In this document: piece after piece, positions 44,593 through 50,635 of the stretch
How positions within the stretch are numbered: the first letter of the stretch is position 1
Layout: each line of letters begins with the position of its first letter
Assembly: GCA_002077065.1 (NCBI GenBank)
Contig: NAJO01000007.1
Location: forward strand, 372,001-436,000
Direction: 5' to 3'
Source: Cryoendolithus antarcticus
Taxonomy: Eukaryota; Ascomycota; Dothideomycetes; Cladosporiales; Cladosporiaceae
Length of the DNA stretch: 64,000 nt
The notes under the pieces: generated by a model
Seen by the model: the letters and a program-made list of their open reading frames with translations, nothing else
What the model was told of the DNA's origin: nothing
Database searches by the model: none
Translations under genes and position numbers: made by a program

Positions 44593-45509
44593 GTACTACC
44601 AACGGCTGGCTACCTTACCAAAAGATTCGAGTGCAGGATGGCGTTCGACTGGTGTTAGCGAGGAGGTAGTTTCACTGTTGTCCACTTCCAGCTCATGGCA
44701 TCACGCTTCTAGGGCAAATGACACTCGTCTCTCCACTGTGATCATAGTGCCGTGATGTCTGTTCTATTCTGTAGTACTTTCAGTGCCATCTGCTAGCTTA
44801 TCCACCATTGTCTGGCACATCCGAGGAATATTGGCAGGTAATCGTTGTTCGCCGCTAGACAAGGCAATCTGCGAGCATCCGATGCGTCCAACGAGTGATC
44901 ATGCGAACGACCAGATCTGTGCTCCTTACCCCACACCAGTGCATACAGTGTCACAAGGATCACAAGCACACCTTGGGGCCCTCACAATGGCGCCCCGTCG
45001 TTTCGGAACAGCATGAGGATGGCAGTATTCGCAGGATCAGTCAGTCGCGAGCTGTCCACAGCTGTGTCTCTCGCATGGGACGGTGCGATGGGCCGCCATG
45101 CAGCAACGAGAGGCGGCCTTCGAGGCGATTGTGTGACTTTAACAAGTGATTATTAGACAGGGCAGAGGCCTCGCCTCGCCAGTACTCGTCGTCTTCATTT
45201 CCAGCGGTACTCTTTCTCTCCTCTTCACGCTCCGCGAACTCGACGTATTTGATCAAGACGGTCAGTGGAGATGACCAAGTCGTGAAGTCGAAGTTCGAAC
45301 GAAAGCCTATTCTTAGCGCGGGACGCCACAATCGATCGGCAAGCATCATGGTGCGACCAGTGAACAGATCCACTGCGCACTCGCTGGACATCTCTCTGCT
45401 TCATGCCACCGCGGAATTCACTACGTTGCGGCGACGATACGACGATGTGTTATTCTTTGAGTCGGCCTGTCTGTATCACAGCTGGCTAGGACTACCTCCA
45501 CTGCACCAG
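44593..45509. other. Intergenic region upstream of the lipase
   Basis: 917 bp. The lipase frame is open back to about 45249, so its 5' leader or an earlier start (45348) may lie here. No other gene seen. Confidence 0.35.
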
Positions 45510-47075
45510 ATGCACGATCCTCCACAAGGTTATGGGTACGAGCGGATGGCTCCGCAACAGTACAACGTCTATAGTTCGCAGCAGCAGGTACCCGCCAGAT
45601 CTGGACAGGCATGGAATGCTACTCCCCTCCACCCGAATGACAGCCAAGTCTATGGCCATAGCTGGCAGCAGAGCTACAACGCGCTCCCGACTGCGGGCGG
45701 TCCAACACTGCCGCCGCGACAGAGGGTAGCACCGAGTGTGCGGCGAGATGGAGCTGTCGCTCGTGGGATGAACCAAGGCGCAGCCTTATGCGACAACATC
45801 GCAACGAGACTCGGGGACATCTTTGCTAGCGCTGGGAATGCTCGTGTAGAAGACGAGGAGCAAAATGAGTTCGAGGAGCTAGCAGAGTTGGCCCGTGGAC
45901 TGTCGCTCGTGGAGGCGGACATTACCAAGGGAGCGTCAAACGAGCGGGCGCCTCTCTTGCCAGACAGCAGTCGAGCTAGAGATGACGAGAAAAAGGTGAC
46001 CAAGAGTCGCCTGGTCAACTTCAAGAAGACATGGTTGTACTCCAACTCTCGTCTACCACCCTACCAGTACCCATTCAGAGCCTATTTCGAAACTTGGCGA
46101 GTGATTTGCATGGCCGCACGAGCTTCCGCACAGGTGTATCAGCGCCCTCGGGCGGACCAACGAGAGCACTATGTCGATGCGAGTTGGCGACACGGGACCA
46201 AGGCTATGGTTGTCAAGAGCTCACCGATAGACGACAAGAATCTCATCGTTTTTGCTATTCGAGGCTCGCAGAAGAACTTCATGGATTGGGCAGTGAACTT
46301 CCGGCCAGCACCGACCGCGCCAGAAGGGTTCCTCGATGATCCGGGGAACGCATGCCATGCAGGCTTTCTGTCTGTGGCGAAGGCAATGGTAGCTCCGGTA
46401 GCACAGCGTCTGCGACAGCTGCTTGAGCAAGATCCGTCAAGGTGCACAAGCTCGCTGCTCATCACGGGTCACTCTGCCGGTGGCGCTGTGGCAAGCTTAC
46501 TGTGGGCTCACATGCACTCTGTTGGTGTCGAATCGGAACTGAACATTCTGACTGGGTGCTTCAAAAGAGTCCACTGCGTCACCTTCGGGGCGCCTCCAGT
46601 GTCATTCTTGCCTCTGCAGAAGCCTCACAGCAAGCGTGGAGACAAGAGCTTGTTCTTATCGTTCGCCAATGAGGGTGACCCGATCGTGAGAGCGGATAAG
46701 GAGTACGTCTTCTCGCTGGCCAAGCTACTCGCCGCTCCTGCTCCTACATGTGCAATCAGACCGACGAAGCCAAAGGCTACGCTCGCGAAGAAAGCTTCGC
46801 AAGCTGTGCTCAACAGCGTCAAGCCTTCGAGAGGCCCTGCGCCTCACTGGCCAGTTCCACCGGCGACGTTATCGAATGCTGGTCGCATGGTTCTAATGCG
46901 CGAGAAGACCCTGAAAGACAAATCGCCGGGTGTTGAAGCGATTATGACTACTGACGAGCAGCTTCGTGATGTTGTATTTGGTGATCCGGCAATGCACATG
47001 ATGTCGCTGTACCGACATCGCGTCGAGAAGCTGGCGTTCGCAGCGATGCTCGGCGATGAAGCTGTACCGCCGTGA
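45510..47075 (+). CDS. Class 3 (Rhizomucor-type) lipase, intracellular
   Basis: A lipase-3-family hydrolase. The ATG at 45510 (MHDPPQGYGYERMAPQQYN) gives 521 residues. An ATG at 45348 is also in frame, so the start is uncertain. The first 200 residues are Gln/Pro-rich and then acidic. The catalytic domain (about residues 230-450) has VIFAIRGSQKNFMDWAVNF and the nucleophile elbow LLITGHSAGGAVASLLW, followed by VTFGAPPVSF and FANEGDPIVRADKEYV carrying the likely catalytic Asp. No signal peptide, so it probably acts inside the cell on acylglycerols or phospholipids. The C-terminal 100 residues form a tail that ends near ALHMMSLYRHRVEKL-like sequence, often seen in fungal intracellular members. 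No intron. Confidence 0.82.
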   Translation: MHDPPQGYGYERMAPQQYNVYSSQQQVPARSGQAWNATPLHPNDSQVYGHSWQQSYNALPTAGGPTLPPRQRVAPSVRRDGAVARGMNQGAALCDNIATRLGDIFASAGNARVEDEEQNEFEELAELARGLSLVEADITKGASNERAPLLPDSSRARDDEKKVTKSRLVNFKKTWLYSNSRLPPYQYPFRAYFETWRVICMAARASAQVYQRPRADQREHYVDASWRHGTKAMVVKSSPIDDKNLIVFAIRGSQKNFMDWAVNFRPAPTAPEGFLDDPGNACHAGFLSVAKAMVAPVAQRLRQLLEQDPSRCTSSLLITGHSAGGAVASLLWAHMHSVGVESELNILTGCFKRVHCVTFGAPPVSFLPLQKPHSKRGDKSLFLSFANEGDPIVRADKEYVFSLAKLLAAPAPTCAIRPTKPKATLAKKASQAVLNSVKPSRGPAPHWPVPPATLSNAGRMVLMREKTLKDKSPGVEAIMTTDEQLRDVVFGDPAMHMMSLYRHRVEKLAFAAMLGDEAVPP

Positions 47076-47315
47076 GATCCTGAATCGCAGAGGTGAATTT
47101 GATCTGAGTATGCTTCAGTGAAGTGAAATGGGTAGAAGAGGCAGGTGCATTGCATGTGAAATCAACGCGTGCCTGCCTTGCAATCGAGGTCATAAGTCGC
47201 TCCGCGCTACACTGACCACTTCACCACAACATCGACTCACTCAATACTCTCGCCGAACAATCTTCTGCCGCCACTGCTTCTCTGCTTCACAGCATACTAG
47301 CACACGCAGTACAAA

Positions 47316-48671
47316 ATGGCGGACGGAGAGACGCCCGCCGGCGACGCACCCCCAGCCGCGGAGCCTATGCAGCTGATATTCCGCGATTCGAACAACACAG
47401 AGATTACGTTCAAGTTGAAGCCAACGACCAAATTCGCGAAGGCGTTTGACGCTTTTGCGAAGAAGACGGAGAGGAAGATTAACGAGTTGCGCTTTCTGTA
47501 CGAGGGCGAGCGTTTGAACGCAGATCAGACCATCGAGGAGGTGAGTTTCAACCGCATTGCTTCATGTTTGCTACGAAGTAACAGCTGACGATATCACTTA
47601 GATTGGCATGGAGGACGGTGATACTGTTGACGTACATATGGAGCAGATTGGTGGGTACAACTATTCGGCGGCTGTGAATGAGCAGATTGATGCGCAGTCC
47701 GGCTCTCTGGACCACGAAGCGTCTACTCCCGACACCTCGCTCGTCCTTCATCAACAGATTGGTGTCCTTCAAAATTCAATGAGCGAGATGCGCATCCGCA
47801 TCGCGGAGCTGGAAGCCAAATTCGACGTGTCCACTGCGCGCAGCGATGGATGTCGCGCTACTGAAGACCTCCATACTGCGCCTGTGATCACGCGCGATGT
47901 TTTTCCCTTGGCGGATGCACTGCAAAGGGACATCTTTGCCGATGTCGTCTCGGCCACTCCGACACGCACGCTTTTCATCAGCAACATCGACAGTGAGGTC
48001 GACGATGAGACGTTCGCGACCTGGCTGGGCGACGATTACCGCGACAACGATTACGGCACCAAAATCGAGAGATACCGCGAGACTGGGGTGAGCAAAGGAT
48101 ATGCCACTCTCACCTTCTGCTCTCAGGACGAGGCCAAAAGCATGTTCCATGAGCTTGACAACTCTATGCTGGGCAACCAGGTTGTCAAGGTCCAGTACGC
48201 AATGACCCGCGACGAAGCCGTCACAGCCCGTGTCCGAGAGCTCAAGATTGAGGAAGAAGTCAACGCTCTGCCGAGCCTGGCCGAGCTCGCCCAAACTGAT
48301 ATGCAGCTGGCGCCCCTAGGTCCTAAGATCACACTGACATTGAAGGTCGGAGCCGCCGATGCTTCGCCGACTAGATACACCATTCGGCGCGAACAGTCGC
48401 TGGAGAAGCTGTTTCAGCACTTTGAGCAGCGCGTCGGCCGGCAGCGCATCGGGATGAAGTTTCGACGAGGAGCTGTGTACGAGGCGCTGAAGGGCTGCTA
48501 CAGCGCGACCAACGTACGTTGCCTTCGCCTAAAGCTTAGGGCTTATGCTGACGTATACAGTACGGATTGGAGGACGGGGACGTGATCATCGCCGAATACC
48601 CTCCTCCCTCGTTCCGCCAAAGCTGGGACCACTATGAGCCGGCATCAGCATGGTGCAAACTCCAGGACTAA
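47316..48671 (+). CDS. SUMO - coiled coil - RRM - SUMO-like fusion protein
   Basis: Exons 47316-47540, 47602-48513 and 48561-48671 give 415 residues. Residues about 18-93 are a SUMO-family fold with hallmark blocks ELRFLYEGERLNADQT and MEDGDTVDVHMEQIGG, ending in the Gly-Gly (codons 47650-47655) used by SUMO proteases and conjugation. The frame does not stop there as SUMO precursors normally do. It runs on through a short heptad-type coiled coil (VLQNSMSEMRIRIAELEAKF, about 124-148) and an RRM (about 197-276) with RNP2 LFISNI and RNP1 KGYATLTF. A second SUMO-like domain (about 317-395, ITLTLKVG through GLEDGDVIIAEY) follows, with no terminal Gly-Gly. Introns have good GTGAGT/CTTAG and GTACGT/ACAG sites. 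I know of no named protein with this order. It may be processed like ubiquitin-ribosomal fusions or act as a SUMO-mimic RNA-binding adaptor. Confidence 0.82.
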
Positions 48672-48820
48672 AGTCACTATGAGCAAGGCCCCATTCGAAG
48701 ACGTAGTGAGCTGGCACGCAGCCGGGGAGCTTCTGGACTGTCCCGTACTGGGACACTGAAGATGGTGCTCCGATAAGTGAATCGAGTGGCGGCCCAGTTG
48801 AAAGCCTACATACCACTAGG

Positions 48821-50230
48821 CTAGAAATCCTCAATAGTAACCCCCAACCCCCTCTCCCTCGCCATCCTCACAAGCTCCCCACCCACAACAACATCCATCA
48901 ACCCCAAACCCACACTCTTGTAAACCACATTCCCCCTCGTCAACCACTCCTTCAACCCCGCTCCACCCTGAAACTCACACCCCTTCCCATTTACCTCCCC
49001 CTTCTCCTTACACAACCGCTCCGCCTCCCGCTTCAACATGAATAGCTCTCCCAACTCCACGACCTGATCGGGCAGCAGCTTAGCCTGAATGATTTCCCCT
49101 GCTTCGCGCAAGCAGCCGGAGACTGTGTCGACGATGACGGCGCCGCCTTCTTTTTGGTGTTTGTGTAGGTGGCGATGCTCGTGATGGGGGGCGACGGCGT
49201 ATTGTAGGATCTCCGGGGCGAGCTCGATCATGTGGGGCTTGTAGCTGCCTACACAAGCTATGTAGCGGCCTTTCGTGCGGCCGGAGGGGTTTGTAAGGAA
49301 TGTTGCTGGGAACAAGGGAGTTGTGGAGGGGGTGGTGCAGAAGATCACGTTCGCGGCGCGGACGTATTCTTTCAGCAGGCGAGAGTATTCTGCGTGCATT
49401 GGCGTGAGGAGTGCGATCTTAGTCTTCATATTTCCACGCGGACCAAGGGTATTGACGTAGCTTGGATCTTCGGGGAGGGGGTTGAAGAGACGCGTGATGC
49501 AGCCTCGGCCTGTGTCGAAGTTCCGCGTGACGATGTTGAGATGATGGATCTCAGTGCCACGGAGCAGGAGGGCCAACCGGATGTGCCAGTAAGCTTGTTT
49601 GCCTGCGCCGAAGACGGTCATGTCGTGGACCGACTGGCGCTTTTTGAGGAGCAGTGTGCTGGCTAGGGCTGTGCGGAAGGCTGTCAGCTCGGCAGCGTTG
49701 ATAAGGCCTGTGGTGTTGCCGAGATTGTCAAGGAGCGTTAGGGAGCCTCGTATGGTCGAGGGTGCTGCGGCTGGGATATCGCCCGATGGGATCTTGGACA
49801 GCGATGGAGACGACCTTCCCGATCCCGTGGAAGACTTCGACGCAGTAGAGCCGACAGTAGACATCGATGGAGTCCGGTGCGACAGCGAACTTATTTCACT
49901 CGAGCTGCGACTACTCGCAGAGTCCAGACTGAGGTTGTCGACGCTCGGCAGGTTGATAGTATCGGTCTTCTCGACTGGGTCGATGTTGACGACCTTGATC
50001 CCTTGGCCAGTCAGTCCACTGGCGGGCATGAACAGCGTCGTCGATCCATCTTTGCGCTTGAGGTGCGTCCGCTCTGGCTGGTAGTCCGAGCAGCAATCAT
50101 TGCCATCACTTGACGTCGAATACCAGTGGAGTGCATCAGCTAGAGACTCCTGTAGCTCCAAGATGTCTTCTTTGGTGAACGAGTGCAGGATGCGGTTGAC
50201 ATCGTTATCGCCCAGAATGGTGAGAGGCAT
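48821..50230 (-). CDS. Ornithine cyclodeaminase / mu-crystallin family protein (PrnX-like)
   Basis: An NAD(P)-dependent Rossmann protein of the OCD/mu-crystallin family. The intronless frame gives 469 residues. N-terminal MPLTILGDNDVNRILHSF and the MPASGLTGQGIKVVNI block form the substrate half. The dinucleotide-binding TVFGAGKQAYWHI lies near residue 203, and DTVSGCLREAGEII and VYKSVGLGLMDV close the family core. Between about residues 95 and 158 there is a Ser-rich insert of some 65 residues that interrupts the fold and is not typical of bacterial members. Aspergillus PrnX of the proline-utilisation cluster is a relative, but no other prn gene is nearby, so the substrate is unknown. From 48840 the coding strand has a very C-poor third position compared with its neighbours. 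Confidence 0.85.
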   Translation of the reverse strand: MPLTILGDNDVNRILHSFTKEDILELQESLADALHWYSTSSDGNDCCSDYQPERTHLKRKDGSTTLFMPASGLTGQGIKVVNIDPVEKTDTINLPSVDNLSLDSASSRSSSEISSLSHRTPSMSTVGSTASKSSTGSGRSSPSLSKIPSGDIPAAAPSTIRGSLTLLDNLGNTTGLINAAELTAFRTALASTLLLKKRQSVHDMTVFGAGKQAYWHIRLALLLRGTEIHHLNIVTRNFDTGRGCITRLFNPLPEDPSYVNTLGPRGNMKTKIALLTPMHAEYSRLLKEYVRAANVIFCTTPSTTPLFPATFLTNPSGRTKGRYIACVGSYKPHMIELAPEILQYAVAPHHEHRHLHKHQKEGGAVIVDTVSGCLREAGEIIQAKLLPDQVVELGELFMLKREAERLCKEKGEVNGKGCEFQGGAGLKEWLTRGNVVYKSVGLGLMDVVVGGELVRMARERGLGVTIEDF

Positions 50231-50635
50231 GCTGGCGGTGTCTCTAGTCTAGGATGGGCACAGTCGCCGCCCTGTATTTCGAGCATTGATCAGTGAAGTA
50301 TCAGCAATTCTTGGATGAGCCAGGTTCAACGTCACTGAATGATGTTCATTACCTTGCAGCTCGGATAAGGTACGTTCGTGTGTTGAGGACTGCCGGAGCT
50401 ATCATCAACAGACAACGAGAGCTTACAGTACTTCACGCGGGGTCACAACTAGTCGCTATCAACACTCGTGGCAACGGTCAAAGGTGATTAGACTGCGTAC
50501 AGGCAAGATGGAAGCTTCACGTCGACATCGTGACAGGTTCGATGTATTACAAAGACCGATGAGTAAGCTGAAATGCTGGCGAAGTCGGCCTAGAAGTGGG
50601 ACCATGAATCGTGATCCATACACGATCTAGACCTT
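50231..50635. other. Intergenic region between the OCD-family gene and UTP14
   Basis: 405 bp upstream of the OCD-family gene and downstream of UTP14. No gene recognised. Confidence 0.35.

Follow-up and report, generated by a model that had tools for sequence, protein, structure and literature searches.

RNA or ribosome factors fused to ubiquitin or to another ubiquitin-like protein are ancient and occur widely; fusions of the small ubiquitin-like modifier (SUMO) are a laboratory tool. Ulp1 is reported to cleave after the Gly-Gly of folded SUMO, but not before Pro (PMC12468823), and to tolerate some changes within the Gly-Gly (PMC9603560). Yeast cells cleaved most of an engineered Smt3-S-eL40 precursor, though with lower efficiency than the ubiquitin fusion (PMC6721733), and the N-terminal ubiquitin-like domain of Sde2 is cut at GG-K, to leave a product that enters the spliceosome and is short-lived via the N-end rule (PMC9508853). 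The gene described here lies at positions 47316-48671 (+) of a window (the whole stretch of DNA analysed, 64,000 nucleotides) from Cryoendolithus antarcticus, contig NAJO01000007.1, positions 372,001 to 436,000. It is proposed, at a probability of about 45%, that its product is a natural SUMO-fusion precursor, which would be cut after Gly93 to free a conjugatable SUMO paralogue and a 322-residue tail. The host is an Antarctic endolithic black fungus, formerly Rachicladosporium antarcticum (renamed in PMC10739867), with an announced genome of 47.4 Mb and 18,781 genes (PMC5502844); the assembly searched here comprised 46,965,068 bases in 149 contigs.

Joining of the three exons gives 415 amino acids with no internal stop, and this product is 100% identical over its full length to the C. 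antarcticus protein B0A48_05329 in GenBank, which bears out the initial annotation of this DNA in its claim that the frame runs 322 residues beyond the Gly-Gly. Both introns are of the GT..AG type (61 and 47 nt). From the N- to the C-terminus, the domain order is SUMO (residues 1-93, ending EQIGG), a linker, a domain resembling an RNA-recognition motif (RRM; 196-276) and a SUMO-like domain without Gly-Gly (315-395). Exon 2 alone, with 304 codons, extends from the end of the SUMO through the RRM into the second SUMO-like domain, most of which it encodes. The features are listed below.

47316..47540 (+): exon 1, SUMO head residues 1-75, from the translation, Pfam Rad60-SLD and identity to B0A48_05329
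47541..47601 (+): intron 1, 61 nt, phase 0, GTGAGT..CTGAC..TTAG; site and phase match the intron of the ordinary SUMO gene
47602..48513 (+): exon 2, residues 76-379, comprising the SUMO head end, linker, RRM, helices and most of the C-terminal domain
47650..47655 (+): Gly92-Gly93 codons, predicted SUMO-protease site, with Tyr94 next
47737..47823 (+): single long helix predicted in the structure model, residues 121-149, possible coiled coil
47962..48204 (+): RRM-like domain, residues 196-276, from Pfam RRM_1, sequence matches in PDB and the structure model
48205..48300 (+): helical segment after the RRM, residues 277-308, conserved, from identity comparison and helices in the model
48319..48513 (+): first part of the C-terminal SUMO-like domain, residues 315-379, from hhalign and the ubiquitin-like order of secondary structure
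48514..48560 (+): intron 2, 47 nt, phase 0, GTACGT..CTGAC..ACAG; its position in the second SUMO-like domain is equivalent to that of intron 1
48561..48671 (+): exon 3, residues 380-415 with the stop codon; the SUMO-like domain runs to about residue 395 (base 48608), with a short tail behind it

Full-length searches scored the 7999 (single protein) or 7997 (family alignment) candidates that shared most words with the query, at 0.55-1.75 times its length. Five proteins had E values of 10 or less among the best 7999 scored: the window's own, two from Oleoguttula sp. CCFEE 5521 (P0002, P0004) and two from Rachicladosporium sp. CCFEE 5018 (P0003, P0005). The same five were recovered among the best 7997 with the family alignment. 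All four homologues keep the domain order, so that the objection anticipated in the initial annotation, absence of same-order homologues in related fungi, falls away. As annotated, P0003 lacks RNP1 and the last part of the C-terminal domain, which may be a gene-model error, and P0005 as deposited misses 15 residues of the SUMO fold. Both paralogues described below occur in Oleoguttula sp. CCFEE 5521, filed under Teratosphaeriaceae, and in Cryoendolithus, a member of the Cladosporiaceae. No fungus beyond these three was found in the searches; a mis-assigned strain, wide loss or transfer are possible explanations.

Within the genome, head and tail were both matched at only two places among the 19 matches listed from a scan that scores best candidates, namely the window and C73:602369 onward. 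The copy on contig C73 (C73:602369-603740; L009 1870-3240) lies between the same neighbours, with blastn blocks of 83-91% identity on both sides. In the tail tree, the six copies form two clades, A (window, P0002 and P0003) and B (P0004, P0005 and C73), with 100/100 support. An assembly error or annotation artefact joining two genes, which the initial annotation had raised and in whose favour nothing speaks except the unusual order, is thereby reduced to a very remote chance: the order is repeated in five deposited proteins of three species (P0003 being truncated) and at a second syntenic locus, and one long exon runs across the domains. This candidate explanation was rejected.

Identification of the first ~93 residues as SUMO ending in EQIGG, made initially from the letters of the DNA, was confirmed. 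Pfam, run on the whole protein, placed the Rad60-SLD (SUMO) profile on residues 18-86 (E 2.3e-19); the head has a beta-grasp fold, the Gly-Gly stands at the fold end, and Gly-Gly-Tyr (G92-G93-Y94) is kept in all six copies. In one respect it departs from a SUMO precursor, in that the chain does not stop a few residues after Gly-Gly but continues for 322. A separate, ordinary short SUMO gene, for which the initial annotation had proposed a search, is indeed present: a homeologous pair on C63 and C95 specifies one and the same product of 97 residues, ending GGAW-stop. Since these short genes exist elsewhere in the genome, the window gene is an extra SUMO-bearing gene. Over 65 core residues, the head shares 28 with the genome's own SUMO and 33 with yeast Smt3; the own SUMO and Smt3 share 39, and the head, having fewer in common with both, is thus the diverged one. 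It is the intron, and not residue identity, that ties the head to the genome's own SUMO. A head-only protein search, which requires shared five-residue words and is weak for 100 residues, found no close relative standing alone; it gave two candidates with shared short words, neither at E ≤0.001.

The second SUMO-like fold that the initial annotation placed at the C-terminus is supported by profile comparison, intron position and the structure model. Pfam, applied to the whole window protein, reported nothing over residues 317-395. When six C-terminal domains were compared with six SUMO sequences by hhalign, the probability was 95.3% with a pairwise E value of 2.4e-8; in the controls, C-terminal domain against RRM gave 0.2% and SUMO against RRM 0.1%. 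The structure model shows the ubiquitin-like order strand-strand-helix-strand-short helix-strand over 317-391. Scanned alone, the domain matched Rad60-SLD at E 0.012 in the window copy and at 0.023 and 0.00049 in two paralogues, all below cut-off, and at an E-value limit of 1 the whole-protein scan gave two Rad60-SLD stretches in 2 of the 4 homologues, the place of the second not being displayed. In the hhalign alignment, intron 2 falls at the same residue boundary and in the same phase (0) as intron 1 (N/YGLEDGD vs E/IGMEDGD), and the ordinary SUMO gene has an intron at that place and phase (S/LDMQDGD). One intron site common to three SUMO domains argues for common descent, and both SUMO domains of the fusion probably descend from SUMO. 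Without Gly-Gly, the C-terminal domain would not be conjugated in the manner of SUMO. Matches to FAA_hydrolase speak against this assignment, and on the C-terminal domain of C73 that profile outscores Rad60-SLD; being all below cut-off (E 0.0004 for the single domain of C73 and 0.029 for that of P0004, 0.0024 for whole P0004 and 0.013 for whole P0005), they were set aside and taken as chance, since none was seen in the window copy and the intron, profile and model evidence favours SUMO.

The structure model of the window protein was weak overall (mean predicted local distance difference test, pLDDT, 56; predicted template-modelling score 0.35) and was used at domain level only. In a second model (P0004 first; mean pLDDT 49), the C-terminal domain was nearly all below 50; the order of elements was similar, and this lends no independent support. 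By aligned length, 48 of the 50 matches listed in the first fold search concern one SUMO-sized domain, the other two being tetra-ubiquitin chains superposed on almost the entire model with a root-mean-square deviation of 20, and all 50 listed in the second concern the head; these searches speak to a SUMO-sized domain only.

The RRM is less typical than was first supposed. RRM_1 was matched on residues 199-270 (E 1.8e-4; 21.8 bits against a cut-off of 20.7). The four homologues scored 20.7, 17, 14.5 and 16.6 bits, one at and three below the cut-off, so that the family is borderline. RNP2 (LFISNI, 199-204) has F200 and RNP1 (KGYATLTF, 240-247) has Y242. Position 5 of RNP1 is usually an aromatic RNA-contact residue; it is T244 here, contrary to the initial description of the RRM as canonical, and the remaining four copies with this stretch have T, I, V and I. 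By sequence, PDB entries of nucleolin and SF3B4 are matched, the nearest RRM being that of nucleolin, and the nearest in the genome itself belongs to a two-RRM RGG protein on C59/C65 (31-32% identity). The coiled coil of the initial annotation survives as one predicted helix (121-149); this segment is mostly missing in P0004, and a coiled coil is therefore no defining part of the protein. Segment 277-308 (window 48205-48300) is, of the parts compared, the best conserved between the paralogues after the SUMO head, with identities of 75-84% within paralogue A and 53-66% between paralogues; no Pfam domain of its own was reported for it in the whole-protein scan.

Head and tail do not share one history. 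In gap-free columns (those with a gap in any copy being omitted), the head has no site that splits the paralogues and 3 that unite both Oleoguttula heads, against 24 and 0, respectively, across the four tail regions. Clade A, as defined from the tail, is rejected by the head (approximately unbiased test, p 0.007), and the Oleoguttula pair is rejected by the tail (p 2e-77). The first paralogue-splitting residue is 95, directly after Gly-Gly-Tyr. The paralogues consist of near-identical SUMO parts on diverged tails, and it looks as if SUMO heads had been exchanged between them, a reading limited by the few variable head sites, head-tree supports of 74-92 and the use of protein sequences alone for the other species. 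Synonymous divergence (dS) of about 1.0 between the heads of the two C. antarcticus copies speaks against recent exchange in this genome.

Proportions of nonsynonymous and synonymous differences (pN and pS) were computed between the window and C73 copies, residues 309-314 and 396-415 being included only within the whole tail. The values of pN/pS were 0.062/0.557 for the head (p 2e-16), 0.363/0.572 for the linker (p 0.0016), 0.329/0.668 for the RRM (p 2e-5), 0.257/0.479 for the helix after the RRM (p 0.023) and 0.416/0.814 for the C-terminal domain (p 2e-7), in which synonymous sites are saturated. It is apparent that all five regions are under purifying selection, strongest by far on the SUMO head. 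The head has far fewer nonsynonymous changes than the tail (p 5e-21), and their synonymous divergence does not differ significantly (p 0.13).

Throughout the genome, genes appear in homeologous pairs on separate contigs (C117/C73, C63/C95), and three measured pairs have dS of 0.52-0.55, as in a duplicated or hybrid genome. The genes flanking the fusion, at window 45150-47075 (+) and 48821-50248 (-), presumably encode a class-3-lipase-like and an ornithine-cyclodeaminase-like protein; their aligned parts are 93% and 97.5% identical to the C73 counterparts. Within this one syntenic block (window 45150-50248 vs L009), pS is 0.56-0.57 in head and linker and 0.38 in the flanks (33.5/60.2 sites in the head and 41.2/72 in the linker, against 274/726 in the two flanking genes together; p 0.009 and 0.002). 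A simple homeologue pair was rejected as insufficient, since head and linker exceed the flanks in synonymous divergence and the A/B split is shared with two other species. For the same reasons the two versions seem to have separated before their surroundings diverged. They may have originated through reciprocal loss of older duplicates or as old divergent alleles fixed in two subgenomes.

The precursor reading supposes that, after duplication of a SUMO gene, one copy became fused to an RRM-like domain and to a further SUMO, the latter having since decayed to a SUMO-like domain that has no Gly-Gly. A Ulp1-type protease would recognise the folded N-terminal SUMO and cleave after Gly93. The products would be a conjugatable SUMO paralogue and a 322-residue RRM/SUMO-like protein beginning at Tyr94. 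Tyr is a destabilising N-terminus under the N-degron rule, and cutting could for this reason also govern the lifetime of the tail, as is reported for Sde2. In its sequence, the head has features that would suit such a protease, namely the SUMO fold, HMEQIGG, a probably flexible stretch after the fold, and Tyr rather than Pro next; residues that we take to be protease contacts are conserved. The genome has eight Peptidase_C48 matches, and the one compared with PDB was nearest to Ulp1/SENP1 structures. The Gly-Gly-Tyr of all copies, the conserved contact residues and the Ulp1-like protease gene favour cleavage; cleavage itself, conjugation, tail stability and the binding partners of the tail are inferred. 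More tentatively, a SUMO protease might yield, at a constant ratio to each other, a further isoform of SUMO and a SUMO-mimic, RNA-binding-like tail that carries a Tyr N-degron, the heads being exchanged as a unit up to the Gly-Gly. Such exchange is what one would predict were the shared SUMO enzymes to encounter the SUMO in its released form alone.

Several observations weigh against this proposal. Part of the engineered precursor remained uncut in yeast (PMC6721733). The head is only 28/65 identical to the genome's own SUMO. It also appears altered in the groove for SUMO-interacting motifs, where we take A43 and K50 to correspond to L47 and R54 of SUMO1, and with these changes and the low identity the cell's own SUMO enzymes may fail to recognise it. 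RNP1 position 5, which is T, I or V in 5 of the 6 copies, those that have the stretch, weakens the RNA-binding claim. In the C73 copy, the ancestral intron 1 has lost its terminal AG: with the normal donor, the first frame-keeping acceptors shorten the SUMO fold by 14 or 15 residues, like the gap in P0005, and with a weak-looking donor four bases on and another AG about three residues are lost. The C73 tail stays open and constrained despite the lost acceptor. If the longer loss is real, the tail would be kept there without a complete SUMO, and this copy favours a tail function independent of one.

That last point fits a chain that is never cut, a stable scaffold offering one or two SUMO-like surfaces to SUMO-interacting motifs and an RRM region that binds RNA or protein, with Gly-Gly kept through descent or structural constraint. 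A second SUMO-like domain under selection without Gly-Gly, a C73 tail constrained though its head may be incomplete, and the commonness of adaptor ubiquitin-like domains (PMC1949818) are consistent with it; yet Gly-Gly-Tyr is kept in 6/6 copies, and Ulp1 as a rule cleaves SUMO fusions well (PMC12468823), so that the uncut state would require protection. We consider such a scaffold somewhat unlikely. It is improbable that the head serves simply as a folding aid in cis, promoting synthesis and solubility of a poorly folding tail before being cut off, with conjugation irrelevant: the engineered Smt3-eL40 fusion did raise yield and lower aggregation (PMC6721733), but this role alone leaves the second SUMO-like domain unexplained. 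A decaying lineage-specific gene, a fusion without selected function, would account for the narrow distribution in three species, the fast tail, the degenerate RNP1, the lost C73 acceptor and the P0003 truncation (if this is not a gene-model error). Against decay stand the excess of pS over pN in all five regions compared and the retention of two deep paralogues in three species, and it must be judged quite improbable.

If the more tentative form of the precursor reading is true, SUMO-protease activity would be linked to the level of an RNA-binding protein, in the first natural SUMO-fusion precursor. Cutting would mean that SUMO is used in nature, too, as a cleavable leader, and would offer a simple test of SUMO-protease control over an RNA-binding protein; if the chain is not cut, it would show how a Gly-Gly SUMO can escape proteases of high activity. 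Owing to the shared introns, the origin (duplication of SUMO, its fusion and the decay of one end) can be read with unusual ease. Searches of open-licence PMC papers aimed at this architecture found no natural SUMO-RRM fusion and no SUMO precursor with a large folded tail, and the excerpt of a beta-grasp review (PMC1949818) names RNA-linked ubiquitin-like domains with no SUMO-RRM protein among them.

Among described systems, the SUMO/Smt3 precursor shares with this protein the fold, the HxEQIGG end and, in the genome's own SUMO gene, the intron site; the difference lies in the tail, 322 residues here against two (AW) in the ordinary precursors. Rad60, Esc2 and NIP45 have tandem C-terminal SUMO-like domains without Gly-Gly. 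Like the window protein they carry more than one SUMO-like domain per chain, whereas here the SUMO domains stand at both ends, with the RRM between and Gly-Gly on the N-terminal one; a further SUMO-like domain on C46 and C13 is taken to be that of the genome's Rad60-like protein. RRM proteins of the nucleolin/Nsr1 type are nearest in RRM sequence (PDB nucleolin; C59/C65 of this genome), but the window protein has one RRM, no aromatic residue at RNP1 position 5 and no RGG repeats. Sde2 is similar in its N-terminal ubiquitin-like domain, a Gly-Gly before a would-be N-degron residue and an RNA-related tail; it differs in that its domain is cut by deubiquitinating enzymes at GG-K (processed Sde2 starting with Lys), as against a SUMO head and GG-Y here, and Pfam gave no match to the Sde2 domain in the window protein. 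In the ubiquitin-ribosomal fusions (Ubi1/eL40 and Ubi3/eS31), an N-terminal modifier ending in Gly-Gly is likewise in frame with a different protein and is likewise constant. Here the modifier is SUMO, the tail consists of RRM and SUMO-like domains with no ribosomal Pfam match, and processing is predicted only. On the best reading, the gene would belong with the known kind of N-terminal ubiquitin-like fusion precursors, as a SUMO counterpart of the ubiquitin-ribosomal fusions or of Sde2.
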